A DNA stretch of 61,571 nt from Alicyclobacillus shizuokensis NBRC 103103. GTDB taxonomy: Bacteria > Bacillota > Bacilli > Alicyclobacillales > Alicyclobacillaceae. The stretch is from the NCBI RefSeq assembly GCF_001552255.1, contig NZ_BCQV01000028.1:1-61571 (forward strand). The letters run 5' to 3'. The position numbers and the translations under genes were made by a program. The notes below the pieces were generated by a model, which searched no databases, was not told where the DNA came from, and saw only the letters and a list, made by a program, of their open reading frames with translations. Shown piece by piece: positions 3,185-20,274 of the stretch (position 1 is the first letter of the stretch; every line of letters begins with the position of its first letter).

Positions 3185-3244
3185 TTCGCCCCTTTGCCCA
3201 TCCCCGATGTCACGGGGGATGGGCGAATTTAATCCCCGCGTGAC
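3185..3244 (-). promoter_or_regulatory. Alternating-hairpin leader of pcfK
   Basis: Between the helicase stop and the pcfK start the minus-strand RNA has competing stems. 3232-3244 can pair with 3209-3220 (GTCACG and GGGGAT arms). 3215-3224 can pair with 3196-3205 (GCCCATCCCC with GGGGATGGGC). 3221-3227 can pair with 3185-3191, which is the GGGGCGAA just before the start codon. The first two share bases and exclude each other. There is no T tract, so it is not a terminator. Confidence 0.6.
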
Positions 3245-3269
3245 TCGGGTTGGATGCAAAGGATGAGTG

Positions 3270-6200
3270 TTAGAGCGCGAACAACATGATTTGGTTATCC
3301 GCGACTTTCTGCTTTTTCACCCGCTTAGCCTTCGGCACCATACCCATCTGCTTACGCCAATCACCGTATGTGAGCGGCGTCTCAGGTTGTGTAGCAGATG
3401 TTTCGGGTGCAGGCTCAGGGCGCTCGGCCTTACTGTCCTCCACGTTGTCGGTCACCGCAAACAGTGGGAGTACCGTGACTTCCGCTGGCATTGCAGACGG
3501 CGCGACCGATTGCGAAGTCTCGACGACTTGCGTCGGATGCGATTCCTCAACCTCAGTCGGTTCAGGCACACCGGCCAGGCGACGAGTCTCGGATGCGAGC
3601 CGCTGCATGGCTTCGTGGATCTCGCGCTTGAAGCGTTCCTCCGCCAACATGACCACTCCGCTCGGAATGTCTTTGTCGGCGAGAGACTTCCACTTTTCCG
3701 CCAGGTCCTCCACGTCACCCAAGCAGTTCGCAATTGCATAAGTGGAAGCCGATTTTTCGTCCTGTTGAACGAACTGTGCTACCTCCGACTTGTCGAGACG
3801 GCCTTCCAGTAGCATGGCATGGCTTCGCTTTTGGAGCATGCGTTTGAACTGAACCATCTCGTAAGACCGGTTGTAGACATAGTAGAAGACTTTGCAGGTA
3901 CGATGCTGGCCAATTCTCCAAGCACGGCGACTGGCTTGACGCATCGTCGCGATCTCGTCGGTGAACTGGTAGAACATCAAGGTCGGAAATTCGAGAAGAT
4001 CAAGGCCCACTTCGACCAGTTTGGCGTTGCAGACCACCACTTCTGTGTCCTTCTCGACCGCCCGTTCCAGCCATTCGACGCGGTCCTCCGGCGATACGCT
4101 TGCTTGCAGGACCTGAACGCGGATCCCGTGTTGCTTGAGCACATCAGCTATGCGCCTGTCCTGTTGGACTTCACCGCTATAGCGCACGTACACCACACAA
4201 CGGCGGTTTTGCGCGAGCTCCGCCTGGATGTCTTCGAGCAAACGCCGTTCTTTCGCGGACAGTTCCTCTGCATCGTAGGTAGGCTCAAACTCGACAAGTT
4301 CGTCACCTACCCGTACCTCTTGGGGCATGTGCGGTTGGTTCGCCGCATTGACCACGGCCGGGATGAACTTCGCAAAGGCTTGGCTGTTTCCCATGGCGTA
4401 CTGCTTGCGCATTACGGTTTCTAGCGTGGAATGGAACGCCTGGTAGGTCAGGCTATGTTGCTCGTCCATGTCCACGAAAATCGGCCGTTCCTCCAGCTCC
4501 ACCAGCGGCAGGCCCATGTCTCCAAGCTCCAGAAATACTGTCTTGTCCGCCAAGTGATTGACGAACAGCTTGGGCGACAGGCCCGGGATTTCTTTTGGTG
4601 GGTTGAGGATCACCTTGCGGGAAGTTGATCCGCCCGCGGATTCCACTTCGTCTTTTGCATATCGTCCGCGCTGCTCCATGGTGCCATACAAGTAAACGAA
4701 CTTGTTAAGCGAACGATGGTCCAGTCCATCCGCCTTCATCTCATCCGGGCAAATGCGCCACAGCAGATGATAAAGGCTGGATGCTTTCCCATCGCTCAGT
4801 GTGCCTGTAAGACCCAGCACGCGCCGGTTGGCTCCAACGATTGCGCCCATTGCTTCTCCTTGGCCGGAGTTGTTCTTGTATTGATGCAACTCATCGACGA
4901 TCACCAGGTCGAACCATCCGCGCAAGTACCGTTGGATAAACCAAGCCGGTTGCAGACGACGGTGTTTGAGCCCAGAAACTTGCTCGCATTCCGGCACAGT
5001 ATCGCGCATCAGGTTGGCACCGCACTCCGTGCAGTGGTAATTTGTGACGGACTTCTTGAACATATACTGGGTTCGAATCTTCTTCCGGCCATCAATGCCC
5101 CTGCATTTCAAGGAGCGGACACCGGTTGCTAAGTCCTCGAACCCTAGTTTCCGTTCCGCGATTTGCGCGGACTCGTTGTCGTGTTTCCGCGCATCCTTCT
5201 CAGCGGTTTTCGTGTGCTTTTGTTGAATGCCACCGCAGTCTGGACAGAGCCAAACATCCTCTATGATCGCAGCTCCGGTGTAGTGGTCATTCCATTTGTT
5301 TTTGTCAGGAACGATCCACCGATGTTTGTAGATTAACGCCGGAGCTTTGGGCATCCCCAGCTTCGCGGTATCGCGTGAGAGCAGGACAAATTCCAATCGA
5401 TCCTTTTGTCCGCGAAGAACCCGCTGATTCCGGTAGCGGATAAGGTCTTTCCAGCTTTCGATGACCGTTACCCGAGCTCCAGGCAGCGTCTTTCCGATCT
5501 CGTCCCGAACCCATTTCGGGATTGTAATCCCTGGCACGAGAAGCAACACCGCAAACCCGCGATTCGAGCGTTCAGACAACGCCTTTGCCGTCGCCAGGCT
5601 GATGATGCTCTTGCCGGTGCCCATGTCGGACGAGACGATGACGCCCTTGCTCTGCTCCAGACCTTTCAAAATCGCTTGGACGGTATGCGCTTGGGCCGGG
5701 AACGGAACACGCTTCATCTGCGCAATCGCTGGATCGATAGGACGATCTAAATCGTGCGCAGGAGTTGCCATCTCCTCAATCGTGGTCGCCAGATGCGGCG
5801 CGTACGTTTGGAGATAGTCGATCACGTGGTACTCGCCGTTCTCATCTGGCTGAAGCGCCTCAGAAAGCAGTGGTGCCTCTGTGATCCCTTCTGGAAGTTC
5901 GATGGTTCCTGTGGCAAGTAAGTTGCTCAGGATCTCCTTCGCTTTATCCTCGTTGAGTTCTTCGGACACTTCAAATGCGACGAGGTCGTGCCAGTAGGGC
6001 ACGTTCGGATCCGTCCAGACATCGAGTGCCCGAACGAGTTCCTGCGAGTAGCAGGCTTCCCACACCGCGTCCTTCCAAGCGGGCACATACGGCAGATTGT
6101 AGTCGCCGGCAAACCGGCGTAGGAACAAGTCCGCCACGTCTCCGCCGTCCGGCACGATGATGAAGCGCGACTGCTCGGGTTCCAACTGTTCATCCACGGC

Positions 6201-6500
6201 CGACTTATGCAGGACAATCGCGTGTGTGAGCTTGCCGATCGGCCGCGTCACGAATCGATAGCCGTACTTGTCGGTGTAGATGTTGTCGGCAGTAAAGCTC
6301 CTCCGATTCTGCTTTAAACGCAGACGGCTGCCTTTGACAGCATGCGCGACAATGGCTCGCGCAGAGCTATCAAGATCAATCAGACCTGCAGCAATCAGAT
6401 CGTCTCCGTTGCGTTGAGGATTCTGATTCCGGCGGGTTACGATGAAATGAGCCGCCGCTTCCACGTAATTTTTCTCATCGCTATACACAATGGTCTTCAT
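3270..6500 (-). CDS. Large Snf2-like superfamily 2 helicase with zinc ribbon
   Basis: A DNA-dependent ATPase of about 1076 residues. The Walker A motif SSDMGTGKS is near residue 292, the Walker B/DEAH-like box VDELHQYKN is in the first RecA fold, and the second fold ends with an arginine-finger segment RQASRRAWRIGQ, as in Snf2-type remodellers. Two CxxC pairs (CPDCGG and CTECGA) inserted in the first lobe suggest a zinc ribbon. Such helicases occur on phages and plasmids, where they may move along duplex DNA or clear bound proteins. I chose the ATG at 6500 because the preceding in-frame codons lie inside a structured leader. The C-terminal 120 residues are low-complexity and basic. It sits between a toxin-antitoxin pair and pcfK in the same operon. 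Confidence 0.85.
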   Translation of the reverse strand: MKTIVYSDEKNYVEAAAHFIVTRRNQNPQRNGDDLIAAGLIDLDSSARAIVAHAVKGSRLRLKQNRRSFTADNIYTDKYGYRFVTRPIGKLTHAIVLHKSAVDEQLEPEQSRFIIVPDGGDVADLFLRRFAGDYNLPYVPAWKDAVWEACYSQELVRALDVWTDPNVPYWHDLVAFEVSEELNEDKAKEILSNLLATGTIELPEGITEAPLLSEALQPDENGEYHVIDYLQTYAPHLATTIEEMATPAHDLDRPIDPAIAQMKRVPFPAQAHTVQAILKGLEQSKGVIVSSDMGTGKSIISLATAKALSERSNRGFAVLLLVPGITIPKWVRDEIGKTLPGARVTVIESWKDLIRYRNQRVLRGQKDRLEFVLLSRDTAKLGMPKAPALIYKHRWIVPDKNKWNDHYTGAAIIEDVWLCPDCGGIQQKHTKTAEKDARKHDNESAQIAERKLGFEDLATGVRSLKCRGIDGRKKIRTQYMFKKSVTNYHCTECGANLMRDTVPECEQVSGLKHRRLQPAWFIQRYLRGWFDLVIVDELHQYKNNSGQGEAMGAIVGANRRVLGLTGTLSDGKASSLYHLLWRICPDEMKADGLDHRSLNKFVYLYGTMEQRGRYAKDEVESAGGSTSRKVILNPPKEIPGLSPKLFVNHLADKTVFLELGDMGLPLVELEERPIFVDMDEQHSLTYQAFHSTLETVMRKQYAMGNSQAFAKFIPAVVNAANQPHMPQEVRVGDELVEFEPTYDAEELSAKERRLLEDIQAELAQNRRCVVYVRYSGEVQQDRRIADVLKQHGIRVQVLQASVSPEDRVEWLERAVEKDTEVVVCNAKLVEVGLDLLEFPTLMFYQFTDEIATMRQASRRAWRIGQHRTCKVFYYVYNRSYEMVQFKRMLQKRSHAMLLEGRLDKSEVAQFVQQDEKSASTYAIANCLGDVEDLAEKWKSLADKDIPSGVVMLAEERFKREIHEAMQRLASETRRLAGVPEPTEVEESHPTQVVETSQSVAPSAMPAEVTVLPLFAVTDNVEDSKAERPEPAPETSATQPETPLTYGDWRKQMGMVPKAKRVKKQKVADNQIMLFAL

Positions 6501-6506
6501 TCTGTT

Positions 6507-6570
6507 CGCCCAGCATGCACCACGTCCGGGGGGCGCCCCGGTTTCGTGATGCACCGGGGCCTTCCCCCCT
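6507..6570 (-). promoter_or_regulatory. Alternating-hairpin leader of the helicase gene
   Basis: Arm 1 (6553-6560) pairs with arm 2 (6535-6542) as GCCCCGGT/ACCGGGGC. The loop and arm 2 can instead pair downstream: 6545-6552 with 6517-6524 (8 bp, one G-U) plus 6536-6541 with 6526-6531. The segment 6531-6535 can pair with 6507-6511 (CGCCC/GGGCG), just before the start codon. A purine run AGGGGGGAAG lies at the 5' edge. The arrangement matches the other leaders although the bases differ. Confidence 0.65.
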
Positions 6571-6593
6571 TTATGTGGTTTCGATGTACTTAA

Positions 6594-7161: not shown

Positions 7162-7233
7162 GATCCATCACCACCGTTATTTTCGTGCCTTAGTGCTGCA
7201 CTATTTTGTGTTCATCATATGATGAGAACTATT

Positions 7234-8283
7234 TTATTGCAAATCTAAAATCGTTCCATCCGGCTGTACGGTGCGCACAGCCGTGACGTAGGATTCGGTG
7301 TCGACGATGGTCTCTGAACCGTCTTCGTTGCGAACCACTTCTCGGTTCACAATTTTCCGCGTCAATCCGACCACCATATGCCGATTCTCGCCAATTCCCA
7401 CCGCACCGTTCAGTGCTCCCGCCGCAATCAGCGTGGCCATGTGTGTACGCCGAAATGGCAGGAGTGGACGGCGGAGTTTGGCGGTAGTGTCGGACGGCAT
7501 GAGCATGTTGGCCGCGATCTGAAAGGCCTCGGATTGTGCGAGATCGAGCCGCAACTCCTCTTCGTCCAGGATGTATCCGCGGAAGAGAATTGGCGTTTCG
7601 ATATTCTCCACAGCAGGCACTGTCCATTGCCGACCATCGGGTGCATCCAGGTACGGCATCGGCAGGTTCTCATCCTTGCCATAGGACAGAAGCTCATTCT
7701 TCGCTTTACGGTCCTCGTTTGATAGCTCTTTGGCCCTCGTGAGGTTCTTTGAGCGCCTACGTCCGAACACCACGACTTGGCGGAAGGCGGCATACTCTTC
7801 GTCGTCGAACCGATACACCGCAATGTCGGTGTATCGGAGCAACAAGACGTTCACCAGTTCCGAGCTGAGTACGTAGCGCGGGATAATGAACACCAGTACG
7901 CCGTCCGGAGCCAGGTACTTGCTCAGGTCCCGCAAGAAGATGAGCTCCTTGCGGAAGATGTCCGATTGAACCCCTGATTGAGAATCGTACGGTGGGTTCA
8001 GGTAGAGTATCTGCATGCTGGCAGGTTCAACCCTTGCCCGTTCATATCCGCAATGAACGACGTGGTGCAGCCGCTCCTTCGCCTTCAGAGCGCGTTGCCC
8101 GTCGAGCTCAATCCCGTACGTTACCGCATCCGATGGTGCTACAGCTGCGAGCGCCTCGCCTTCTCCACAGCACGGGTCGAACCAACGTGCCGGACCGGAC
8201 GGAATAAGCCGCTTGCGAATCTTGTCCACCATGCTCAGCGGTGTGGGATAGTAGCCCATTTTGCTGATTCCTTCATATCTCAT
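7234..8283 (-). CDS. N6-adenine DNA methyltransferase-like protein (DUF6094 type)
   Basis: A class I SAM-dependent methyltransferase of 349 residues. It has the glycine loop WFDPCCGEGEAL (motif I) near residue 33 and the adenine-methylase motif NPPYD near residue 97, followed by a hydrophobic strand VLVFIIPRYVL. The N-terminus MGYYPTP is typical of plasmid and phage methylases in this group. It has no restriction partner nearby, so a protective or regulatory role is more likely than a restriction system. I placed the start at the ATG at 8283, which follows GAGGGACGAG. Frames further up run into the structured leader. The last 100 residues are less conserved in pattern. Confidence 0.8.
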   Translation of the reverse strand: MRYEGISKMGYYPTPLSMVDKIRKRLIPSGPARWFDPCCGEGEALAAVAPSDAVTYGIELDGQRALKAKERLHHVVHCGYERARVEPASMQILYLNPPYDSQSGVQSDIFRKELIFLRDLSKYLAPDGVLVFIIPRYVLSSELVNVLLLRYTDIAVYRFDDEEYAAFRQVVVFGRRRSKNLTRAKELSNEDRKAKNELLSYGKDENLPMPYLDAPDGRQWTVPAVENIETPILFRGYILDEEELRLDLAQSEAFQIAANMLMPSDTTAKLRRPLLPFRRTHMATLIAAGALNGAVGIGENRHMVVGLTRKIVNREVVRNEDGSETIVDTESYVTAVRTVQPDGTILDLQ

Positions 8284-8360
8284 CTCGTCCCTCACGCCGT
8301 GCGTTTGGGACGAGAGGTTTCCCCTCCGTCCCAACGTGCAAGACGGAGGGGTTCACCTCC
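8284..8360 (-). promoter_or_regulatory. Alternating-hairpin leader of the methylase gene
   Basis: A perfect Shine-Dalgarno GGAGGTGAAC follows the vapC stop codon directly, but no gene starts there. Arm 1 (8342-8351) pairs with arm 2 (8321-8330) over 10 bp. Arm 2 can instead pair with arm 3: 8327-8334 with 8305-8312 (8 bp) and 8323-8326 with 8314-8317. Arm 3 (8307-8314) can pair with 8284-8291, GGGACGAG touching the ATG. Formation of 1:2 therefore allows 3:4 and covers the methylase ribosome-binding site; 2:3 frees it. Confidence 0.75.
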
Positions 8361-8768
8361 TTACAAGGTCTCTACTCCAACAGACTGCGCAGCAAGGTAT
8401 AGCTGCTTATCCGTAGTCGCCAATGGGCACTTCAAGCGTTGTGCCAGTTCCAAATATGCCGCGTCATACGCGGTTAGGCCGTTGTCCAATGCCAAGCTTA
8501 GAGTTTTATGAAAAACATGGGACGCTGAAACCTCGTCAACCACGATTTCCAAACCCGACAATAGTTTCGTGGCAATCCGAATCTGCTCCAGGTTCATGCG
8601 GTTTCGCCTGTGACCGACAAGAAGTGCGTTGGAGACTTCCAACGGCCAGATTGCCGGTACGGTTGCGGTGTCCTGCTTGAACCTGTTCAGAATTCGTGCT
8701 GCATAATCGTTTGATTCGTCTGGAAAACACCAACTCAGAGCAACCGAAGCGTCCAAAACAAAGGTCAT
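8361..8768 (-). CDS. vapC: VapC-like PIN-domain toxin
   Basis: A 135-residue PIN-domain RNase. The first aspartate is in FVLDASVALSW, the conserved glutamate in WPLEVSNALL, and the later acidic residues in LTAYDAAYLELA and LATTDKQL, so the four-acid metal site is complete. VapC toxins cut tRNA or rRNA until bound by the antitoxin. Its ATG overlaps the antitoxin stop codon (ATGA). The stop codon is followed at once by the leader of the methylase gene. Confidence 0.9.
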   Translation of the reverse strand: MTFVLDASVALSWCFPDESNDYAARILNRFKQDTATVPAIWPLEVSNALLVGHRRNRMNLEQIRIATKLLSGLEIVVDEVSASHVFHKTLSLALDNGLTAYDAAYLELAQRLKCPLATTDKQLYLAAQSVGVETL

Positions 8769-9007
8769 CAGAAGCGCCGCCCCTCTTCGATCATTTCTTG
8801 AATAGACGGCCCCTCTGAACTCACCATTTGCCGAAGGCGCTTGAACCCGTCCGCGATGTCATCCACAGACATTGTTTCATCCCGATATGGAACAATTTTC
8901 GCCACTGGTTTTCCACGTCGCGTTACCAAGATGGTTTCGCCATTCATCACTTCATCCAGTAATTCGGCTAAATGAGTTTTTGCTTCGTATGCTCCAACTT
9001 CTTTCAT
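8768..9007 (-). CDS. Phd/YefM-family antitoxin
   Basis: A 79-residue antitoxin with the Phd/YefM N-terminus VGAYEAKTHLAELLDEVMNG, strand ILVTRRGKPVAKIVP and an acidic C-terminal helix that should wrap VapC. I chose the ATG at 9007 because GGAGATG lies 8 bases upstream and the family starts just before this motif. The frame is also open from an ATG at 9088 that sits next to the hairpin leader, which would add 27 residues. If that start is used, the leader controls the antitoxin directly. Confidence 0.85.
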   Translation of the reverse strand: MKEVGAYEAKTHLAELLDEVMNGETILVTRRGKPVAKIVPYRDETMSVDDIADGFKRLRQMVSSEGPSIQEMIEEGRRF

Positions 9008-9088
9008 ACGGATCATCTCCAATAAACCAGTCGTTACGACCAGTTTATTCGAAATGACATCTGTTAACAATCGTGTTTTATCCACCAT

Positions 9089-9158
9089 GTCCCTCGCCTG
9101 GGCTTGGGACGAGAGGCTCCCTCCGTCCCAGGCATGCAGACGGAGGGATTCACCTCCT
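9089..9158 (-). promoter_or_regulatory. Alternating-hairpin leader of the phd-vapC pair
   Basis: It is a sequence relative of the methylase leader. AGGAGGTGAA follows the ardC stop closely; arm 1 (9139-9148) pairs with arm 2 (9118-9127). Arm 2 can instead pair with arm 3 (9124-9130 with 9105-9111, and 9120-9123 with 9113-9116). Arm 3 (9106-9110) can pair with 9089-9093, adjacent to an ATG. The loop base changes between this copy and the methylase copy leave all three pairings intact. Confidence 0.7.
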
Positions 9159-9162
9159 GTTT

Positions 9163-10020
9163 TTAGATCGCCTTGCGCAACTCCGGCGTCTCTTCCAATG
9201 CCCTGAGAATCCGATCCGCCGCCTGCTGAATCCTCGTCCCGCACGCCTTGAGGGCATTCACGGCCTCTTTCCCACTCCATCCGGCGATGTATCCGAACGA
9301 GTAGTCCGAGGTATCCAACCCCAACGCGTGTGCGACTACAAAGGCGGTAGATTCAGCCTCAAGCTCGATCCACGGCCGGCAGGATGCATCCAGGGGACCC
9401 TGGTTGTGCAGAATCCCATGTGCCCATTCGTGAATCAAGGTTTTTGCCTTGTGCGCCTCGGGCAATGTCTGAACAATCTCGATGTGCTGCGTTCGCAACT
9501 CGAATCGACCGTTTGCGCTGCCGAGGGACTTGACTTCACGAATCGGGAACGGGCAGGCCTTATGCAGCTTTCCGTACAGGTCACTCTCACCCGTGAGAAT
9601 CCGCGGTCTCTCAACTTGCGGCAACGGCTCTCCTTCTGTTTGCGATACGTCGAACACGTACACGACACGATAGCCGTACAACACGCGCTCCGTGTCTTCA
9701 TCATGTTGCTCTTTCTCTTGTTCCTCTTCGCTTGCCTGTTCCTCGTTCACCGGTTTTGCCTTGGTCTTACGGAACAACGGTGCGAAGATCTCAATCCCGC
9801 GCTCACCCTTTTTGACATAGCGGCCAAGCTCCTTCCACCGGTTGTAGCCGGCGACGAGGGTCGCATTGGGCCGCTGGATCATGATGAGCAACGTGTTTGC
9901 GAAGCTATATCGATGGAACGTCGCTTGGAACTGCAGAAACTTTCGCCACTCAGCACTATCGAGCAGTGTCTCCAGTCCTTTTTCCAAGCGTTCCATGGCA
10001 GCTTTCGTCTTCCCGTTCAT
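9163..10020 (-). CDS. ardC: ArdC-like antirestriction protein with zincin domain
   Basis: The N-terminal 120 residues follow the ArdC ssDNA-binding domain (the pattern YSFANTLLIMIQRP, then VAGYNRWKELGRYVKKGERG). The C-terminal half has a zinc metallopeptidase motif HEWAH near residue 217 with a downstream ELEAES glutamate, as in ArdC and ImmA/IrrE-like proteins. ArdC-type proteins protect incoming plasmid DNA from restriction; the protease activity is reported for related proteins but is unproven here. An acidic insert (about residues 95-110) is rich in E and Q. It follows dnaN in the operon and has a structured leader before its ATG. Confidence 0.85.
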   Translation of the reverse strand: MNGKTKAAMERLEKGLETLLDSAEWRKFLQFQATFHRYSFANTLLIMIQRPNATLVAGYNRWKELGRYVKKGERGIEIFAPLFRKTKAKPVNEEQASEEEQEKEQHDEDTERVLYGYRVVYVFDVSQTEGEPLPQVERPRILTGESDLYGKLHKACPFPIREVKSLGSANGRFELRTQHIEIVQTLPEAHKAKTLIHEWAHGILHNQGPLDASCRPWIELEAESTAFVVAHALGLDTSDYSFGYIAGWSGKEAVNALKACGTRIQQAADRILRALEETPELRKAI

Positions 10021-10023
10021 TTC

Positions 10024-10090
10024 GACGCCCCACCCATCAACACCAAAGGGGGCGTCCCCTCTTGGTGCTGACGAGGGGACTTCCTCCCTT
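10024..10090 (-). promoter_or_regulatory. Alternating-hairpin leader of ardC
   Basis: Arm 1 (10073-10080) pairs with arm 2 (10054-10061) as GTCCCCTC/GAGGGGAC. Arm 2 can instead pair with arm 3: 10062-10067 with 10041-10046 (CACCAA/TTGGTG), plus 10056-10059 with 10048-10051. Arm 3 (10049-10056) can pair over 8 bp with 10024-10031 (GACGCCCC/GGGGCGTC), four bases before the ATG. GGGAGGAA precedes arm 1. The sequence is unlike the methylase leader, but the layout is the same. Confidence 0.7.
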
Positions 10091-11331: not shown

Positions 11332-11643
11332 TCAATGAAAAACCAGCCGAGTCCATGCGGGGTGCACTTGAGTAGGCACCTCCAAGACGTCGCCTGGTTG
11401 AATTCGTGAGACATCACGGATGTGGTTATGCTGAACAATGGCATCGACCACATACCGCGTATTATTGGATGTATTTTGTTTCTCGGCGATGGACCAAACG
11501 GTTTGCCCCGGTTGCACAACGACTTGTTTCCAACCCGTTAACTCAGGCGGAAGAAGTCGAAGCGTAAGGAGCATTTCGACTCCGGCTAGAAGAATGAGTC
11601 CAATCGCGCCGTATCCGATGTATCTTATGATTCGCAATGCCAT
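11332..11643 (-). CDS. Small membrane-anchored LysM protein
   Basis: A 103-residue protein with an N-terminal transmembrane segment (about residues 7-30) and a LysM motif in the second half (VVVQPGQTVWSIAEKQ, then IVQHNHI and IQPGDVLEVP). The layout recalls YneA-type division inhibitors, which are induced with the SOS response, but a simple cell-wall-binding role is equally possible. Its start codon is buried in one of the strongest leader hairpins of the window, so translation should be tightly controlled. Confidence 0.75.
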   Translation of the reverse strand: MALRIIRYIGYGAIGLILLAGVEMLLTLRLLPPELTGWKQVVVQPGQTVWSIAEKQNTSNNTRYVVDAIVQHNHIRDVSRIQPGDVLEVPTQVHPAWTRLVFH

Positions 11644-11645
11644 CC

Positions 11646-11719
11646 CCTCCGTGGGTGTAGTTCACCCACGGAGGCCCGCCGCCCGAGGGTGATTATTCAC
11701 CCCCGTTGGCGGGCGGGGT
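11646..11719 (-). promoter_or_regulatory. Alternating-hairpin leader of the LysM gene
   Basis: A 12-bp hairpin (11663-11674 with 11646-11657, CCTCCGTGGGTG against CACCCACGGAGG) buries the GGAGG ribosome-binding site, two bases from the ATG. Upstream, 11697-11702 and 11687-11692 form GGGTGA/TCACCC with loop ATAA inside a larger GC stem. TCACCC can pair instead with the GGGTGA at 11662-11667, which would open the SD hairpin. Confidence 0.75.
11673..11719 (-). repeat. Leader repeat, copy 1 (47 nt identical)
   Basis: These 47 bases recur without change at 12609-12655, in the same place relative to the next start codon. They fold into a GC stem with an inner GGGTGA-ATAA-TCACCC hairpin. Confidence 0.9.
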
Positions 11720-11725
11720 GGTTAC

Positions 11726-12152: not shown

Positions 12153-12572
12153 TCATTCCTTTTCTGGTTTCCAACACAATCGGATCGTGTAGGTTTCATC
12201 CCATAAATGTGGCGACTGAGACGGATCGTATACCGTTACAACGGTTAAAACTTTGTCCTTGGTATCAGTGGCGATCACCAAGTGCAAAGGCCTATAGACC
12301 GTTGGCGCAATTTTAGCGTAACCCAGCCAAAGCCACTTAGTTCCAGACTTTGTGCATGCAAAATGAATGCATTCCCCATTTTCAAATGCTTGGATTGCCT
12401 GCCACGGTGGGATATGACGTTGATCTTCCCGATCTTCGACATGGCGCGACCATTCTAACTTATATCCGCTACGCAGAAGTTCACGAAGCTCGTCGCCATG
12501 TTCTTCCGCATGTTTTATACCGCGCATCCAAGCTCGTGCTTTGCTTTGACATTCAGGATGTGAGCATGCCAT
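12153..12572 (-). CDS. DUF4258-like protein, probable toxin of a YgiT pair
   Basis: A 139-residue protein with an N-terminal CSHPECQSKA segment (possible metal site) and a C-terminal beta region, WLGYAKIAPTVYRPLHLVIATD, then VLTVVTVYDPS, that resembles the RelE-like fold of DUF4258/MqsR-type toxins. The next gene downstream encodes a YgiT zinc-finger protein, 46 bases away. The ATG at 12572 follows GGGGAGGGAGC. A structured leader with the duplicated 47-base element precedes it. The toxin role is inferred from the family pairing. Confidence 0.6.
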   Translation of the reverse strand: MACSHPECQSKARAWMRGIKHAEEHGDELRELLRSGYKLEWSRHVEDREDQRHIPPWQAIQAFENGECIHFACTKSGTKWLWLGYAKIAPTVYRPLHLVIATDTKDKVLTVVTVYDPSQSPHLWDETYTIRLCWKPEKE

Positions 12573-12582
12573 TTTGCTCCCT

Positions 12583-12655
12583 CCCCGCAGGTCAACTTTC
12601 ACCCGCGGGGCCCGCCGCCCGAGGGTGATTATTCACCCCCGTTGGCGGGCGGGGT
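12583..12655 (-). promoter_or_regulatory. Alternating-hairpin leader of the DUF4258-YgiT pair
   Basis: The 5' half is the duplicated 47-base element. The 3' half forms CCCCGC/GCGGGG (12605-12610 with 12583-12588) immediately before GGGGAGGGAGC and the ATG. The GGGTGA at 12597-12606 can pair back to TCACCC of the duplicated part, giving the same three-way choice as in the LysM leader. Confidence 0.7.
12609..12655 (-). repeat. Leader repeat, copy 2 (47 nt identical)
   Basis: Identical to 11673-11719. The flanking bases diverge at once on both sides, which shows that only the 5' half of the leader was duplicated or conserved. Confidence 0.9.
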
Positions 12656-12666
12656 TATCAAAGCTC

Positions 12667-12942
12667 TTACAATGCGTGCGTGTGTTTGTGTTTCCGTCGC
12701 ACCGTGATACTGGTTTTCCACTCGTCCGCGGAGTACACAGTAATTACCGTGTTCGGCTTGGCAAGAACCACATGAATTGGTTTGCCATTGATGTCTCCAC
12801 GCTTCATAACACGGGTTCCGTTCTCTTGCACGGTAACGCCGACCTGGGCGATCTGCTCAACTGCTTCAATGGGCAGCCGGCGTTCGATGATCCGTCGGAC
12901 AGCGTGTCCGTTGAATACTGGTTTCATCAGGGTCATTCTCAT
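12667..12942 (-). CDS. DUF4258 domain protein
   Basis: A 91-residue protein with the DUF4258 pattern: an N-terminal H-x3-R-x3-ERRLP helix, then VTVQENGTRVMKRGDINGKPIHVVLA and a final strand VITVYSADEW. Members resemble RelE-type toxins and are often in two-gene units, but I see no clear antitoxin directly beside it. The start is uncertain (three ATG codons within 15 bases). The 5' end overlaps the 3' end of the neighbouring small ORF by 77 bases, so one of the two boundaries may be wrong. Confidence 0.6.
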   Translation of the reverse strand: MRMTLMKPVFNGHAVRRIIERRLPIEAVEQIAQVGVTVQENGTRVMKRGDINGKPIHVVLAKPNTVITVYSADEWKTSITVRRKHKHTHAL

Positions 12943-14642: not shown

Positions 14643-14657
14643 CGTCATCCATCCTTT

Positions 14658-14720
14658 CCGTGGATTTGTGGTCACACAAACCCACGGACGGTGCCGGGGC
14701 TTGTGTGACATGCCCCGCAC
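14658..14720 (-). promoter_or_regulatory. Alternating-hairpin leader of the SbcC-like gene
   Basis: Arm 1 (14712-14720) pairs with 14691-14700. Its loop holds GTCACACAA (14701-14709 on the complementary strand), which can pair over 9 bp with 14671-14679. The segment 14675-14687 can instead pair over about 12 bp with 14658-14670 (CCGTGG...CCACGG), right in front of the AAAGGATGG ribosome-binding site. All three pairings share bases. Confidence 0.7.
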
Positions 14721-14766
14721 ACGCGTGCAGGAGGTTCAGATGCTTTTTAGAGAGGTGTCGTGTTGC

Positions 14767-15516
14767 TCAGATCGTTACCAAGGACGTTTCGTCATGCCAA
14801 AGGTCATAAATGAAACCGATCCCCTTGGCCGTAACTAACGTCTGCGTTACGTTGACGACTTTGTCCTTTCGAGTGGTACTGACTTCGCGGACCTTGAAAT
14901 ATCCGCGTTCAAGGTATTCCTGATACGGCAGGTTGTTTTTCATCAAGACCTTCTTCTCTCGCAGGAACTTAAACAGCCGGTTTCGGCCTGTACCCAGTGC
15001 TTTCGCAACCTGAGCGATGGTCTGAGCGTTAGCGCCTGACAGAAGTACGCCATACGCTTCCGCCTTCGGCGCGAGCTCTTGGACCTGTTCCTGCAAGCAA
15101 AGGCGATCCTTTTCTGTCTCAACGAGTGCCTCCAGTGCCTCCAGGTAGTTCGACGGCAGCTTGCGCCCGTCCACGTACATCCCGGGCTTCACGTACATAC
15201 CCGTCTTGCGGATCTGAGGGAGCACCTCATGGACTACCCAGCGCTTGAACTGCTTGGCCTCCGGTTTGCGGCTGCGGAGGACCAAAGAATACAACCCAGG
15301 CTCGTTGACGACGGTCATTTTCTGGTTCCCACCAGGGGTACTCACAATATGAGTACCCTTTTCGTCATCATCCAAGCCGGCGACACCTCGGTCGACCTTT
15401 GCGATTCCAAGCACCTCGCAGACATCTTTCGCGACCCACCAAGGTTCTCCGTTGATCATGATCACTCGGACCTTCTCACTCTGGAAATTGAACTCCATGA
15501 TCTCTTCCATTTGCAT
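14767..15516 (-). CDS. Phage-type antirepressor (BRO-N plus KilAC)
   Basis: A 249-residue protein. Residues 5-105 match the BRO-N domain (INGEPWWVAKDVCEVLGI, then KQFKRWVVHEVLPQIRKTG). Residues 125-245 match the KilAC antirepressor domain (AQTIAQVAKALGTGRNRLFKFLREKKVL). Phage antirepressors of this build disable repressors or act on DNA directly. Here it probably adjusts plasmid or resident prophage gene expression. The ATG at 15516 follows GGGGAGGTT, part of which is held in a leader hairpin. Confidence 0.85.
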   Translation of the reverse strand: MQMEEIMEFNFQSEKVRVIMINGEPWWVAKDVCEVLGIAKVDRGVAGLDDDEKGTHIVSTPGGNQKMTVVNEPGLYSLVLRSRKPEAKQFKRWVVHEVLPQIRKTGMYVKPGMYVDGRKLPSNYLEALEALVETEKDRLCLQEQVQELAPKAEAYGVLLSGANAQTIAQVAKALGTGRNRLFKFLREKKVLMKNNLPYQEYLERGYFKVREVSTTRKDKVVNVTQTLVTAKGIGFIYDLWHDETSLVTI

Positions 15517-15522
15517 AACCTC

Positions 15523-15593
15523 CCCGTGAGTTGGGTTTTATGAGAACCACAAGCCCACGGGTAGCGCCGGGGCTTGTGGTGATTGCCCCGCGC
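15523..15593 (-). promoter_or_regulatory. Alternating-hairpin leader of the antirepressor gene
   Basis: Arm 1 (15585-15593) pairs with 15564-15573 (GCGC plus GGGGC). The loop segment 15571-15580 can pair over 10 bp with 15546-15555 (ACCACAAGCC/GGCTTGTGGT). The segment 15556-15561 can pair with 15523-15528 (CCCGTG/CACGGG), which overlaps the GGGGAGG ribosome-binding site. It is clearly related in sequence to the SbcC-like leader. Confidence 0.7.
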
Positions 15594-15611
15594 GCTATGC
15601 GGGATGTAATG

Positions 15612-15662
15612 AAAAAGACCAACACAATCCAAGGGGAGTATCCCTTCTGGATTCCGTTGGTC
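15612..15662 (-). terminator. Intrinsic terminator / possible attenuator before the antirepressor
   Basis: Nested stems GACCAAC/GTTGGTC (15656-15662 with 15617-15623) and AATCCA/TGGATT are followed by five T residues on the minus strand. It lies between a promoter-like sequence and the antirepressor leader, so it could work as an attenuator, or simply end the upstream disrupted gene. Confidence 0.75.
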
Positions 15663-15685
15663 TTCCTGAACGAACCGAGGTTCGT

Positions 15686-15714
15686 TTTCTATTACGTTGT
15701 TGGCCGAATGTCAA
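15686..15714 (-). promoter_or_regulatory. Putative promoter upstream of the antirepressor
   Basis: TTGACA (15709-15714) and TAGAAA (15686-15691) are separated by 17 bases on the minus strand. The -35 is perfect and the -10 is weak. Transcripts would run into the terminator hairpin 24 bases further on. Confidence 0.5.
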
Positions 15715-15778
15715 CAGTCAGCTGACTTATTATGAGCCGCCCATTCAGGAAAGGCCTCTTCAAGTTTCTTAATGAGAC
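15711..15778 (-). pseudogene. 3' fragment of a gene interrupted by an IS1341 element
   Basis: Next to the right end of the TnpB element an open frame encodes about 21 residues (SLIKKLEEAFPEWAAHNKSA, then DC) ending in TGA. It reads like the C-terminus of a real protein, and it lacks a start. The matching 5' part should lie across the insertion, near 17090-17190. Confidence 0.4.
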
Positions 15779-17082
15779 TTGACACTCCACACGGCTAAAG
15801 CCGTGGGATTCTTGGGAGCATCCTCGCAACCGAAGATTCTGCCTTGCGGCTCCAAGCTATCCCCGTGTGTCCCACGGTTGAGTCCGCTTAGGCGGACATA
15901 TTCAATAGTCGCAATCCTTCTCGAAGAATGTTTCTGGCGGCGTTCACATCGCGATCATGGTGTTCGCCGCAGTTTGCGCACGTCCACTCGCGTACAGACA
16001 AATCTTTTGTCTCAGAGTTTCGATATCCGCAATTGGAGCAAAGTTGGCTGGACGGAAACGACGGAGATACGACAGATATCTGTCTTCCGTACCAGACCGC
16101 TTTGTATTCTAACTGCCGACGAAACTCAGACCAACTGGCATCTGAAATGTTTTTCGCCAGGCGGTGGTTCTTCTGCATGTTTTGCACGCGCAGGTCTTCC
16201 AGACAGATCACTTGGTTCTCGCGAATGAGCCTGGTGGACAGCTTGTGCAGGAAATCCAGCCGGGCGTTGCGTACCTTCTCATGCAGCCTGGCCGCTTTCA
16301 GCCTGGCTTTCTCCCGGTTCTTTCCTCCGGACTTCCGCCGGGAAAGAATCTGCTGCCAGCGTTTCAGTTTCTCTTCGTGTTTTCTCAGATGCCGGGGGTT
16401 CGGGATCGTTTCCCCGGTGCTGAGAATGGCGAAATCCTTTAACCCAAGGTCGATGCCAACGGCGGTCGTCTCTGGCTTCAAGGATGGAATCTCAGTATCT
16501 ACCAACACTGAGACAAAGAATTTGCCTGAAGGCGTTAAGCGCACCGTCGCAGAGAGAATTCGTCCTTGCACTTCGCGGGATTTGGCAAACTCCACCCATC
16601 CCACCTTCGGAAGCCGAATCCGGTTACCTTCGATACGGATGGTGGCTTTGTCGTCCTCTCGGCCGTTGCGTTTCGACGTATAGGACTGCTTCGGGTGTTT
16701 CTTGCTCTTGAAGTGTGGGTAGCCTTTCTTCTCCCGGAAGAACCGCTGAAAGGCGTCGTCTAGTTCTTCCACCGCCCGTTGCAGGGCCGTGGAGTCCACA
16801 TCCCGAAGCCAAGAGTACTGCTGTTTCAACGCTGGCAACTCGCGCATACAGGCGTATTGGTTCAAGGTGGTGCCGTCCTGCTCGTAGACTTCTTTTCGAC
16901 GGGCGAGGAAGTGATTGTATACAAACCGACAACAACCTATTGTTCGCCGGATTTGTTGTTCCTGCTCTTTCGTCGGATAGAGACGGAAGGAATAGGCTTT
17001 GTGCACCGAAATCACCAAGAAAATGGTACCATATCGCGCTTCATCCCACCCCTAAAGGAGTGGGCTTTCGCGCGCGTTTCTT
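15779..17082 (-). mobile_element. IS1341-type element with tnpB only
   Basis: The left end (near 17045-17082) follows a TTAC tetranucleotide and has the subterminal hairpin CCCACTCCTTTAGGGGTGGG. The right end is the hairpin CACGGCTTTAGCCGTG followed by GTGTCAA, the same end as in the element at 48-49.4 kb. IS200/IS605-family ends are of this kind, without terminal inverted repeats or target duplication. There is no tnpA, so it must be moved by a TnpA supplied in trans. Confidence 0.8.
15888..17006 (-). CDS. tnpB: TnpB RNA-guided endonuclease (intact RuvC)
   Basis: A 372-residue TnpB. RuvC aspartate in [12 protein letters not shown], glutamate in [12 protein letters not shown] and the last aspartate in [12 protein letters not shown] are all present, with the zinc finger CSNCGYRN...CANCGEHH between. 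TnpB cuts DNA at sites chosen by an RNA made from the right end of the element, next to a short target-adjacent motif, which preserves the element during transposition. The likely start is the GTG at 17006; TTG at 17018 is also possible. The guide RNA should cover the 3' end of the gene and the hairpin at about 15780-15890. Confidence 0.9.
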
Positions 17083-17190
17083 GTAACTCTTAGCTTCGTT
17101 TCCCGTTATCCGTTGTAGAACAGCTTGTCTATCAACGGAAGTGAAATCAACCGAGACATAGGGTTTAACGTGCTCAGCAATGCCATTTCA
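17083..17190 (-). pseudogene. 5' part of the gene interrupted by the IS1341 element
   Basis: Downstream of ssb, an open frame encodes IAEHVKPYVSVDFTSVDRQA and continues to the left end of the element. It has no in-frame ATG, which suggests either a frame error or that the start has been lost. A hairpin (about 17185-17225) with AAAGGAGGGAGCC resembles the leaders of neighbouring genes, so the original gene probably belonged to the same regulated set. Confidence 0.4.
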
Positions 17191-17249
17191 AAGAGGGTAG
17201 CTCCTCTCGCACTATTGAACGAGAAGGGCTCCCTCCTTTCTCCTGGTTG

Positions 17250-17726: not shown

Positions 17727-17741
17727 GTTCGGTTCTCTCCT

Positions 17742-18812
17742 TTAAGACACAATCGCGAAATCGATCAATTCCATACGGTTTTGCCATTTCTGTGATGGAG
17801 CCGTTCGGAAGCGAATCGCGGTGCCTTCCTTTATTGGCTTGAGTTGACGGACCAATTTCGGGTCATCCGTTAGAACCTCAAGGAGTTGCCCGTCTATCGT
17901 GGCTAACTTCGCTCTAACAACTTCCCGATTGGCTTGATTGCGGCGGCATTCTACTTTTGCCACAGCCGCAATGTCCTCGTCGGTGGACACATTCGTATCA
18001 GATTGCGCTGACGATGTATCCTCGTCAGTCACGTGATCAGTGGACTCACCCACGTCTTCCTCGTCCACCAAATTGGCATTGATGAACAAATCCTCAGGGA
18101 GTTCATTCTCAGGAATCGGTTCAACATTTGGAGTACTCGCCGCAAGAAGCGGTGTTTGTTTGAGAAAGTCTGTGAGGCGCAGATCGTCGATTCCAAGCGT
18201 TAGGACATACACTGTCTTGGATTTGCCATCTGGATTGACGACCTTTGGCACGATCCGCAATTTGAGCGGGATCATCGCGATGCGCCCACCCGTTAACGCT
18301 CGGATCATTTGAATGCTTCCGTTGAGATTCACCGTGCTATGGAAACTGGTCGTGTCAATCTGCCAGACTCCAATTCCAGGTACGTCTGGCAAAAAGAACT
18401 GAAGACGACCAAGCTCCTTGCACTTCCCTGCCTGATAGATTGGGCAGTCACGATACAGACACTGAATCTGTACCTTTCTGCCTTCTCCATCCGAACGGCG
18501 TGCGATTTCACCATCGCCCTGGCAAAACAGTTCGTACCGACCGTTTCCGCCTCGATAGGAGGACAACCACTGCGGAAAGAACTGTTCTGGGTCGTTGGAC
18601 GGGAAGGCAATGGTGATCTCATCCGGTTTGTCGCCATACACGTCATGGAAGGCTTGAGCCGCCTTCTCGGACGTGGATTCGTCCGGCTTGACAACGAAAT
18701 AATTCACAGCTTTGGGATATGATTTTCCATTATCATTTGTGGTCCGTACACCCAAGTGAATCTTGCCAACTCGATGAATACGCATAATGTCGCTGAAGCC
18801 TTTAATCGGCAT
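17742..18812 (-). CDS. Gp3-like recombination directionality factor domain protein
   Basis: A 356-residue protein resembling the Gp3-like proteins named after the directionality factor of phage phiC31, which turns serine integrases from integration to excision. A cysteine cluster (CLYRDCPIYQAGKCKELGRL near residues 125-145) and the following FFLPDVPGIGVWQIDTTS match that family's zinc region. The C-terminus is acidic and then basic. No serine integrase is present in this window, so it may act with one elsewhere or have an unrelated ssDNA role. The ATG at 18812 follows AAGGAGGGAAAC. Confidence 0.7.
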   Translation of the reverse strand: MPIKGFSDIMRIHRVGKIHLGVRTTNDNGKSYPKAVNYFVVKPDESTSEKAAQAFHDVYGDKPDEITIAFPSNDPEQFFPQWLSSYRGGNGRYELFCQGDGEIARRSDGEGRKVQIQCLYRDCPIYQAGKCKELGRLQFFLPDVPGIGVWQIDTTSFHSTVNLNGSIQMIRALTGGRIAMIPLKLRIVPKVVNPDGKSKTVYVLTLGIDDLRLTDFLKQTPLLAASTPNVEPIPENELPEDLFINANLVDEEDVGESTDHVTDEDTSSAQSDTNVSTDEDIAAVAKVECRRNQANREVVRAKLATIDGQLLEVLTDDPKLVRQLKPIKEGTAIRFRTAPSQKWQNRMELIDFAIVS

Positions 18813-18938
18813 TTGTGTTTCCCTCCTTCGCCCCTGAACAACAAAAAACGCCAATACGAAGCCAGCGTGCATGTGTCAGCACACTGTTCTCGTTGACGTT
18901 TCCTCGCCCGTTGGGGTGTCAAAAAATTTATGGTGCTT

Positions 18939-19160
18939 TTACTCGAGATAATCGAGAAGTTGCTCAGGGGTCAGGCTTGCTTGATGCAAAATCTCTTGTA
19001 AGGTCCCACGTTTAATGGGGTTATGATTGGGGACGACAACGACGTGCCCATTTGCGTTTTCCAAAATCACGTGAGAACCGGATTGGCGTTTTACTTCAAA
19101 TCCGGCCTTTTTTAGCGCTGCCAGAACCTCGCGGGCAGACAGTTGTGGAAGCTTTGGCAC
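18939..19160 (-). CDS. hicA: HicA-like toxin
   Basis: A 73-residue HicA-type mRNA interferase with a dsRNA-binding-like fold: LSAREVLAALKKAGFEVKRQ, then GSHVILEN with the catalytic histidine, and VVVPNHNPIKRGTLQEIL. It begins directly after the HicB stop codon, so the antitoxin is made first, which is the less common gene order for hicAB. Confidence 0.9.
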   Translation of the reverse strand: MPKLPQLSAREVLAALKKAGFEVKRQSGSHVILENANGHVVVVPNHNPIKRGTLQEILHQASLTPEQLLDYLE

Positions 19161-19385
19161 TTAGTCCACCTCGATTGTAGTCAAGGTGGAAGGTGGCACA
19201 TCTTCAACAGTCTCTCCCTTGTCCTTCATGTACTGAAGGTACAGGGCGATTGCATCTCGCGCGTTCGACACGGCTTCTTCAAATGTATCGCCTTCCGTAA
19301 CGCATCCCGGAAGACCAGGAACAGTCACGACATACCCGCCGTCGTCTGGATCAGGCGTTAACACGACGGAGAAAATCCTTTTCAA
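19161..19385 (-). CDS. hicB: HicB-like antitoxin
   Basis: A 74-residue HicB antitoxin with the partial RNase H-like fold (VVLTPDPDDGGYVVTVPGLP, then GCVTEGDTFEEAVSNARDAI). I prefer the TTG start at 19385 because GGAGGTG lies 6 bases upstream and homologues begin just before this motif. An ATG at 19442 is also in frame. No separate DNA-binding domain is visible at the C-terminus. Confidence 0.85.
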   Translation of the reverse strand: MKRIFSVVLTPDPDDGGYVVTVPGLPGCVTEGDTFEEAVSNARDAIALYLQYMKDKGETVEDVPPSTLTTIEVD

Positions 19386-19453
19386 GTCGAACACCTCCGT
19401 GCTGTTTCCTTTAGCACGAAGTATATCCGATATCGTCGACATGGTTCCAGCTT

Positions 19454-19993
19454 TCACCTCTCAACTTGTTCAAGCATCTGTTGCAGACGCTCGATCTGTT
19501 CTCTTTTAAACCTTTCGTGTTCCTTCCACTCGCGCCAAATCCAGTCGAGCTCCGCCTTACGATGACGCCGCCATTGCACGGGATCAATACCGCCAGGTGC
19601 AATGCGCCGCGGCGTACGGAGTGTGAATCCAAGCTCAGCCAGTTGGGCTTTGGTGAGGGTTTCAGCAGGGTGCAGCCGGCGTTTGGCTCGCTTTCCACTC
19701 TGCGGGTAGAGTTCCGCCTTCGCAGCCTCGAAGCTGATTCCTCGAAGCCACGCGTGGAACGCTATCACGCCGCCTTTTGCGCCACATTTGTGACAAAAGA
19801 ACGTGTCTTTAACGGAGGATACGTACAGGTGAAACTGCCTGTTCGTATCGCCGCATACTGGACAGTGGGCCTTCCACTGGCCTGGGCGGTACGTCTTGAA
19901 CAACTGGAGGTTGTTGCGTGAAGCAACTTCCTCGATGCTGATCAATCCGGACCTGCTTGACACGTGATGACGAATCTCAGACCCAACCGACAC
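19454..19993 (-). CDS. CHC2 zinc-finger primase-like protein
   Basis: The core is a DnaG-type CHC2 zinc finger: HCPVCGDTNRQFHLYVSSVK, then TFFCHKCGAKGGVIAFHAWL. No TOPRIM catalytic domain follows; the C-terminal 80 residues are basic and helical (WIWREWKEHERFKREQIERL). It may be a DNA-binding subunit that works with another primase, or a truncated primase. The start is uncertain: GTG at 19993 after a run of eight G residues, or TTG codons further in. Confidence 0.7.
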   Translation of the reverse strand: MSVGSEIRHHVSSRSGLISIEEVASRNNLQLFKTYRPGQWKAHCPVCGDTNRQFHLYVSSVKDTFFCHKCGAKGGVIAFHAWLRGISFEAAKAELYPQSGKRAKRRLHPAETLTKAQLAELGFTLRTPRRIAPGGIDPVQWRRHRKAELDWIWREWKEHERFKREQIERLQQMLEQVER

Positions 19994-20013
19994 GACTACC
20001 CCCCCCAAGAAAC

Positions 20014-20196
20014 TCAGACTGTACGTGCTGTGCGCAAATCTGTCTGTGATTCTAAAGGAGGTTTTTCGGCAGTTGCGGTCATTTCGAGGGCTTGTTGGAC
20101 AGTTATCTTTGCGAGGTGCTCTCTGTGGGGATTGTCTCCGTCGCTCAGTGCACGAATGAGCTCCGAGACGTTGCGTGGTTTCATGGACTTTGGCAT
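20014..20196 (-). CDS. Short first ORF of the DNA-processing operon
   Basis: A 60-residue ORF that I do not recognise. It starts MPKSMKPRNVSELIRALSDG and looks helical, with a polar tail. It is the first ORF after the long leader, has an alternating-hairpin element in front of it and ends six bases before the primase-like frame. Its position suggests a regulatory or leader role. Confidence 0.5.
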   Translation of the reverse strand: MPKSMKPRNVSELIRALSDGDNPHREHLAKITVQQALEMTATAEKPPLESQTDLRTARTV

Positions 20197-20207
20197 TTCG
20201 ATCTCTC

Positions 20208-20274
20208 TCCCGATATTCTCCCCGCTAAGGCCGCCGGGGAGAAGTGTTTTCTCCCCGCGGCAGGGGATTCGGGA
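20208..20274 (-). promoter_or_regulatory. Alternating-hairpin leader of the first operon gene
   Basis: Arm 1 (20249-20261) pairs with 20230-20243 (GCCGCGGGGAGAA/TTCTCCCCGGCGGC). The middle arm can instead pair over 8 bp with 20216-20223 (TTCTCCCC/GGGGAGAA). TCGGGA at 20208-20213, next to the ribosome-binding site, can pair with TCCCGA at 20269-20274, 5' of arm 1. Confidence 0.6.

Follow-up and report, generated by a model that had tools for sequence, protein, structure and literature searches.

Alternative folds around distant Shine-Dalgarno sequences in an Alicyclobacillus plasmid-type operon: leaders that may act as switchable split ribosome binding sites

The DNA analyzed here (the window) is the 61,571-nucleotide contig NZ_BCQV01000028.1 of Alicyclobacillus shizuokensis NBRC 103103, taken whole from a 3.63 Mb genome in 148 contigs. 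Its minus strand carries an operon that runs from genes for a primase-like protein, an RDF-like protein, ssb, an antirepressor, an SbcC-like protein, DUF4258, LysM, and dnaN to ardC, phd-vapC, a DUF6094 methylase, a helicase, a pcfK-like protein, and pcfJ; our subject is the RNA leaders that precede several of these genes. Relatives with the same operon are Alicyclobacillaceae, the nearest being Alicyclobacillus kakegawensis. Operon counterparts lie on Alicyclobacillus plasmids (e.g., NZ_CP066785 and pDSM3922.1); some species carry them on contigs of several megabases, the A. mengziensis chromosome being one. The methylase gene is present in 15 of 41 family genomes, and these supplied the orthologous leaders for comparison.

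The original prediction described ten leaders built on one shared plan of alternating hairpins. Structured leaders were found at all ten places, in at least two designs rather than one. In type I (helicase, methylase, phd, and ardC), a strong Shine-Dalgarno (SD) sequence, AAGGAGG-like and called arm 0 below, lies 55–81 nt 5′ of the start codon and downstream of the preceding gene. Type II leaders (pcfK-like, SbcC, antirepressor, and several related ones) have an ordinary strong SD near the start; in the window, the six leaders other than the type I set all have such a nearby SD, covered in one fold. The leaders of the window are listed here, some with their minimum free energy (MFE) folds and best alternatives, energies in kcal/mol; k counts the permutations, out of 100 that keep the first fold and permute its pairs, that do as well.

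3177–3269, minus strand: type II leader belonging to the pcfK-like (AcrIIA9-family) gene, start 3179; the local SD pairs with an arm that follows the helicase stop.
6498–6572, minus strand: type I leader of the helicase gene, start ATG 6500–6498; SD arm AAAGGGGGG, bridging hairpin, and start codon in turn.
8281–8363, minus strand: type I leader of the DUF6094 methylase gene, start ATG 8283; SD arm AAGGAGGTGAA directly 3′ of the vapC stop.
9083–9160, minus strand: type I leader upstream of phd; its ATG (9088) shares the reading frame of the usual Phd start (9010); near copy of the methylase leader.
10018–10090, minus strand: type I leader of ardC, start 10020; SD AAGGGAGGAAG and bridging hairpin.
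11641–11722, minus strand: LysM leader of two hairpins, the second covering the SD; alternative fold weak (k = 12/100).
12570–12660, minus strand: leader of the 12572 gene (a sub-threshold DUF4258 match); paralogue of the LysM leader.
14646–14722, minus strand: type II leader of the SbcC-like gene, start 14648; MFE −47.4, alternative −44.0, k = 0/100.
15514–15605, minus strand: type II leader of the antirepressor gene, start 15516; paralogue of the SbcC leader; MFE −42.8, alternative −40.5, k = 0/100.
17185–17244, minus strand: probably a decayed eleventh copy, type I, recognized by eye after ssb and before a gene cut by an IS200/IS605-type (tnpB) element.
20194–20285, minus strand: leader of open reading frame (ORF) 20196; the MFE fold covers the SD; alternative fold weak (k = 8/100).

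The leader at 12570 had been assigned to DUF4258. Its owner is instead the 12572 gene, which scores 20 bits against a DUF4258 cut-off of 25, and the gene whose counterpart is annotated DUF4258 (12667–12942) precedes it. Nor do all the leaders fall into unrelated sequence groups, as had been proposed, since three related pairs exist: phd/methylase (repeats D9 and D13), LysM/12572 (D1), and SbcC/antirepressor (D2). The counterpart of the eleventh copy in another locus (L026, start 35718) keeps an intact geometry.

In type I, a predicted hairpin spans the gap between SD and start. The SD–start interval folds, as its own MFE structure, into a single hairpin in 20/20 distinct helicase leaders, 12/16 methylase leaders, and 6/6 distinct ardC leaders that bear arm 0. 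The helicase interval of the window is one hairpin of −36.0 kcal/mol with an effective spacing of 10–11 nt, and that of ardC a single hairpin of −41.2 with a spacing of 8. The window's own methylase leader is one of the four methylase exceptions: it has a hairpin of −40.2 at a spacing of 10, in an interval whose MFE structure (−42.6) is not a single hairpin, and it was left out of the spacing statistics and of the inner-hairpin test described below for that reason. In all, 70 leaders collapsed to 42 nonredundant ones, of which 30 entered the spacing statistics after exclusion of 4 that are not single hairpins and 8 model matches that lack a start codon at their end. When the hairpin is left out of the count, the effective SD–start spacing is 6–14 nt (mean 10.4, standard deviation 2.2, n = 30); outer stacks of fewer than three pairs were trimmed for this measure, and untrimmed values include 1–4 where two outer pairs extend the stem. 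Put differently, 30 of the 34 start-ending leaders are predicted to form a single hairpin, every one of these 30 at a spacing of 6–14, and the other 4 are predicted not to. When the intervals of the 34 leaders were shuffled, 565 of 3400 shuffles reached the spacing geometry and 1 was as stable. In the interval-folding table, two rows for the 12572-type gene (g12572; loci L041 and L042) have misplaced arms.

The original prediction also held that several leaders begin with a perfect SD that starts no gene. The first half stands in part: the exact GGAGGTGAA occurs in two leaders (methylase and phd), and the helicase and ardC leaders carry AAAGGGGGGAA and AAGGGAGGAAG, respectively. The second half probably does not, because the predicted hairpin bridges the gap and arm 0 pairs with the anti-SD far better than the local site does (−13.6 against −5.0 kcal/mol for helicase leaders; −16.3 against −6.9 for methylase leaders), so that arm 0 is best read as the gene's own SD, probably in all four type I leaders of the window. 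Six gene sets treated as leaderless show the reverse pattern, with local-site means of −9.8 to −13.0.

Covariation supports the pairings of this bridging hairpin. Pairs changed on both sides number 18/20 in alignment A5 (41 distinct rows; score 0.437 vs 0.173) and 24/24 in A4 (47 distinct rows; 0.490 vs 0.213), with 0/500 shuffles as good in either case; both alignments were fitted to the bridging structure (fold B) and contain a few chance or antisense matches. An unfitted MAFFT alignment of 20 helicase leaders gave 10/24 pairs changed on both sides (0.322 vs 0.216, 0/500). An alignment-free swap test, which compares matched with mismatched hairpin halves, gave p = 0.0002 for both helicase (12) and methylase (14) leaders, 0.0004 for SbcC, and 0.025 for ardC, with five controls at 0.45–0.88; it was not significant for pcfK, AAA, LysM, DUF6744, g12572, and hyp25137. 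Pairing in RNA should leave more G-U than A-C, and the fitted alignments clearly show this; in the unfitted alignment A1 there are 10 A-C pairs against a column expectation of 24.2 and 70 G-U against 79.2.

A second fold competes with the first. In 35 leaders (the 42 less 7 that are not single hairpins), the inner hairpin formed by arms 1 and 2 exceeds permutations that keep fold B in 35/35 cases (k ≤ 10/200; k = 0 in 24), with a mean of −18.0 vs −8.0 kcal/mol in the permutations; the 1:2 pairing is therefore kept besides the long hairpin, and it excludes it. The hairpin of the 3′ arm on its own (arm 3 with arm 4), which had been proposed as a regular element, passes the same test in only 3/35 and so does not belong to the general plan; within the long hairpin, the usual partner of arm 4 is arm 1. 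In the second fold (fold A), arm 3 is predicted to pair with the SD: on average 5.4 of 7 SD bases are paired in fold A and 1.5 of 7 in fold B. The two folds differ by a mean of −3.1 kcal/mol (standard deviation 5.3) and lie within 5 kcal/mol of each other in 19/35. For the window, folds A and B have −35.3 and −36.0 kcal/mol in the helicase leader and −41.5 and −38.3 in the phd leader, and the inner hairpin is at 0/200 permutations in both.

Folding of growing prefixes at 50 °C (34 leaders) gave a mean probability that the SD is free of 0.72 once arm 2 is present, 0.25 when a further 16 nt (arm 3) are added, and 0.60 for the complete leader, and the value stays at 0.35 when arm 4 is shuffled. 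The rise at completion exceeds 0.2 in 23/34 leaders, and the value falls in 2. Since these values come from equilibrium folding of prefixes, we infer a timing role from them conditionally: the SD may be hidden until its own start codon exists.

Across gene sets, the best alternative with no pair in common with the MFE fold was compared with 100 dinucleotide shuffles. The alternative was matched by at most 5/100 shuffles in helicase 12/12, methylase 14/14, ardC 6/7, g12572 4/5, pcfK 3/4, SbcC 6/9, antirepressor 2/2, AAA 4/4, DUF6744 3/4, hyp25137 2/2, ORF 20196 1/1, and LysM 3/7, and in the control sets pcfJ 0/5, primase 0/1, RDF-like 1/9, ssb 2/10, dnaN 3/11, DUF4258 3/11, and VWA 2/5. The exclusive alternative folds proposed for the window are borne out by 0/100 shuffles for pcfK, helicase, methylase (z −7.0), ardC, SbcC, antirepressor, the 12572 gene, and ORF 20196 (z −3.0), with LysM at 1/100 (z −2.4) and phd outside that shuffle test. 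Under the stricter control used for k, five leaders of the window hold up, namely pcfK (1/100), ardC (0), SbcC (0), antirepressor (0), and the 12572 gene (2); LysM (12/100) and ORF 20196 (8/100) are not confirmed. Over the control sets, dnaN passes in 1/11 and none of ssb, RDF-like, pcfJ, and VWA. The proposal that genes with ordinary leaders lack such folds holds in the window, where dnaN scores 93/100, ssb 45, RDF-like 86, and pcfJ 56. Some control members elsewhere, the A. acidoterrestris dnaN and RDF-like leaders, are structured themselves.

For the type II leaders, the SD is on average more paired in the MFE fold than in the alternative in the pcfK, SbcC, antirepressor, AAA, and LysM sets, and not in 12572, ardC, or DUF6744. 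In the window, the local SD of the SbcC-like leader is paired at 6/7 bases in the MFE fold vs 1/7 in the alternative and that of the antirepressor leader at 4/7 vs 3/7; the 12572 leader has 5/7 in both folds. The alternative hairpin of the pcfK-like leader (−34.2, against an MFE of −43.3) partly frees its SD.

Taken together, we give roughly two chances in three to the reading that the type I leaders of helicase, methylase, phd, and ardC work as split ribosome binding sites that can be switched. Computation supports both folds, the conservation of the bridging and inner hairpins, and the spacing. In fold B, arm 1, a loop, and arm 2 would pair with arm 3, a second loop, and arm 4 as one long hairpin that brings SD and start codon to about 10 nt from each other, and a 30S subunit using both would constitute the ON state. 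In fold A, arms 1 and 2 would form their own hairpin and arm 3 would pair with the SD, giving an OFF state. The two folds are often predicted to be close in energy, and fold A could form first during transcription; arm 4, which ends near the start codon, would be required for fold B, so that the SD would stay hidden until the start codon is made. A trans factor or upstream ribosomes could tip the balance. Type II leaders may work along similar lines, their SD lying at the last arm. On this reading the leaders would control translation, and the proposed undescribed RNA switch is upheld as far as exclusive folds at gene starts and the lack of an Rfam family go: no family reached its gathering score in the leaders, and below gathering only snoRNA and miRNA families appeared. 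A ligand-sensing riboswitch is not supported, because no conserved unpaired core was seen; the invariant columns are the SD, the arms, and the start codon. As the original prediction stated, inspection by eye shows no T tract behind the leaders, and no minus-strand terminator is listed inside any of them.

Several observations weigh against this reading. In 13/35 leaders fold B is favored by 5–16 kcal/mol and in 3 fold A by 6–7, which would make a switch one-sided there. The SD:arm 3 pairing, the weakest element, beats composition-matched shuffles (k ≤ 5/100) in 13/35 leaders, and in the window's ardC leader its gain is not beyond shuffles (57/100); the models thus favor this pairing for the group and not leader by leader. 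Arm 0 scarcely varies, and therefore covariation cannot test it. Column-wise counts for the 1:2 pairing are weak on the alignments fitted to fold B, probably because of a register shift of arm 2 in those alignments; in A5, a register displaced by one column scored higher. In the unfitted alignment A2, A-C pairs are not below column expectation (17 vs 16.7). Among controls, the coding region before the DUF4258 gene (12942) scores 2/100. The dnaN control leaders also differ in SD pairing between folds, so that SD covering alone is no mark of the class. A loose scan for the geometry finds 3 sites in reversed copies vs 14 real ones (three sources), and single matches of that scan are therefore not proof. 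Finally, a GTG or ATG lies 8–14 nt 3′ of arm 0 in 15/20 helicase leaders, in which arm 0 could also start a short ORF.

Of the other explanations, the one that survives best is that arm 0 is a standby site, on which the 30S subunit docks before it melts the hairpin or slides past it to the weak SD by the start, the hairpin only tuning the rate. Standby binding with sliding on structured leaders is documented (PMC3936740), and methylase leaders do retain a moderate local site (−6.9). We nevertheless regard standby as unlikely, as it leaves unexplained the spacing of 6–14 in 30/30 single-hairpin leaders, the covariation of a long hairpin of mostly −27 to −53 kcal/mol, and the weak local sites of helicase leaders (−5.0).

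The start codons behind arm 0 would suit leader-peptide attenuation, with arm 0 serving a short ORF: ribosomes translating it would open the hairpin and pass on to the next start. Several of the helicase ORFs do end at or fuse to the helicase start. Among the helicase leaders, however, the frames differ: 5 are in-frame, 10 give short ORFs, and 5 lack a start. The peptides have little in common past their first residues, and interval lengths differ by non-multiples of three. Over all types, a start 4–13 nt after arm 0 occurs in 14/42 leaders, which is about chance by our own estimate for 10 positions and 3 start codons. A conserved short ORF was not found in the helicase and methylase orthologues read, or in the other types as judged by start-codon position only, and we hold this explanation to be very improbable. 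The same low weight goes to processing or stabilizing hairpins (e.g., RNase III sites) between the genes of a long operon: long paired stems do separate co-directional genes here, but such hairpins need no SD arm, no fixed distance to a start, and no second exclusive fold.

Leader types are modular between genes, with arm 0 lacking from ardC in loci L028, L040, L041, and L042 and present in the other eight loci read, and with a DUF6744 leader of type II in L026, of type I in L027 and L038, and none recognized in L030. This would suit a DNA-level element (a recombination or single-strand hairpin site, such as attC-like cassettes or single-strand promoters), which is hardly credible given 59 loose-scan sites on the operon strand (some of them chance) vs 1 on the opposite strand in 22 sources, 12 vs 0 in the strict scan of nine sources, and A-C mismatches fewer than G-U in the fitted alignments and A1. 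Two further readings were also considered. Strict translational coupling is weakly supported, the distance from the upstream stop to arm 0 being loose (overlapping to 66 nt). A pseudoknot, with the loop paired to arm 4 while 1:2 persists, would have little or no linker on one side by eye, and nested fold B is preferred; short pseudoknot contacts could still serve as refolding toeholds.

Models built from the leaders of one gene match the leaders of other genes: R1, from helicase leaders, finds the window's ardC leader at 4.2e-6, and R2, from methylase leaders, finds that of phd at 1.6e-7. Four matches were dropped: two antisense copies of real leaders in L030 and L031, a weak one in L046, and a match in L027 downstream of pcfJ, although its counterpart in L043 was retained. 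R2 matches 16 of 59 genomes of the order, including three places in the same geometry in a genome of a second family, two of them near-identical before methylase relatives and one before another gene. One further R2 match (L077, 7157–7242, plus strand) has no start codon at the expected end and is possibly a decayed leader. With stricter filters, R2 over 398 genomes across the phylum matched only the window's own genome, and R1 over 299 genomes across the class matched only 9 family genomes. The pattern scan of viral contigs gave 0 sites, and no such leader was recognized before the distant methylases of two viral contigs, each folded once at an uncertain start. On a viral contig (L063), a long symmetric hairpin (−29.9 for 95 nt) lies upstream of 950 (plus strand), before a distant methylase with an uncertain start codon.

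Outside these relatives, a fold-only scan of a Brevibacillus marinus plasmid, chosen for its helicase relative, flags 2/17 gene starts, and both sites read as the split-site design in unrelated sequence. The strict scan, which finds 2/4 of the window's type I leaders, recovers the Brevibacillus helicase site and nothing on opposite strands or in the rest of the plasmid read. Cytobacillus gave 0/20 gene starts in the fold-only scan, and the Cytobacillus, Thermobacillus, and Halobacillus stretches gave 0 in the strict scan. The leader family itself lies in Alicyclobacillaceae plasmids and some chromosomes.

A gene of the same plasmid family is a candidate for a trans-acting partner:

22705–23589, minus strand: S1-like protein.

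It resembles ribosomal bS1 over ~100 residues (bS1 chains, best E 2.4e-7); NCBIfam S1 models score far below their cut-offs, and there is no Pfam match. The first fold match of its low-confidence model (pLDDT 63, four sequences) is bS1 in a 30S mRNA delivery complex. At E ≤ 1e-7 the protein occurs in 14/15 methylase-bearing genomes vs 4/26 others, although a backbone gene would co-occur in any case, and a role in the leaders is a guess. E. coli S1 is reported to unfold structured mRNAs on the ribosome (PMC3858243). The Brevibacillus plasmid with split-site leaders also carries a protein annotated with an S1 RNA-binding domain (L094, 3584–4591, minus strand). A bolder picture, which we offer tentatively and consider doubtful, is that of plasmid-wide, self-timed split sites, in which the SD would be hidden until its start is transcribed and then carried over a 65-nt gap, with the balance set by the plasmid's S1-like protein on the host 30S subunit; a mobile element would then control its operon by RNA shape rather than by sequence.

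Other features of the window and its relatives adjoin these leaders. The phd-vapC pair (8361–9160, minus strand) seems to be inserted between ardC and the methylase gene together with a copy of the methylase leader (the repeats D9 and D13 above) and reads as if a leader travels along with its gene. Counterparts of the pcfK-like protein (2727–3179, minus strand) on two Alicyclobacillus plasmids are annotated as the Cas9 inhibitor AcrIIA9 family. Two TnpB-like ORFs (15888–17018 and 21110–22402, minus strand) were recognized by eye, and the first seems to interrupt the gene after ssb and its leader. An inverted repeat at 15615–15664 (I12), terminator-like with a T run, lies just upstream of the antirepressor leader, and a repeat resembling it was seen by eye before ORF 20196, near 20274–20345. 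At 48026 (minus strand), within the RecJ-like gene (46326–48311), there is an SD-hairpin-ATG geometry that could be an insertion-sequence end or chance. A HEARO RNA at 57254–57455 (minus strand; RF02033, 98.6 bits) is unrelated to the leaders.

To the best of our knowledge, only a few genes have been described with a split ribosome binding site. Translational riboswitches and attenuators have two exclusive folds, one covering the SD, and the leaders are predicted to resemble them in this; unlike them, the leaders lack a conserved unpaired core, match no Rfam family at gathering score, and share no leader peptide across all, and the ON fold of type I would itself be the bridge. In hok and MS2-type metastable leaders, the order of folding during transcription can set SD exposure, as may be the case here, but those leaders are not known to bridge SD to start. 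A close likeness is to phage T4 genes 25 and 38, in which a hairpin splits the ribosome binding site between SD and AUG and cuts the spacing from 27 to 11 nt (gene 25) and from 22 to 5 nt (gene 38), the gene 25 hairpin being kept among close relatives (PMC3014915). There, too, a hairpin brings a distant SD to working distance. The present leaders differ in their gap of 55–81 nt, in recurring before several genes of an operon in several sequence groups, and, for type I, in a second conserved fold that could hide the SD. In E. coli thrS, a long hairpin reportedly stays folded while the ribosome accommodates it (PMC3936740), and the bridging hairpin would likewise be taken in still folded; unlike in type I, the thrS hairpin (domain 2) follows a single-stranded domain 3, and the cited passage gives no SD upstream. 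Among the matches listed from the open-licence literature there were no Alicyclobacillus plasmid leaders of this kind and no split site with a competing OFF fold, which is not proof of absence.

If the split-site reading is true, such sites would be an evolving family of modular elements, each with an OFF fold of its own, over an operon of mobile elements, and one that recurs in another bacterial lineage in unrelated sequence. The leaders make it testable how far the 30S subunit accommodates folded RNA between SD and start, and they offer a natural part for RNA engineering. For the annotation of genes with a bridged SD, SD-based start prediction may misjudge where translation begins.

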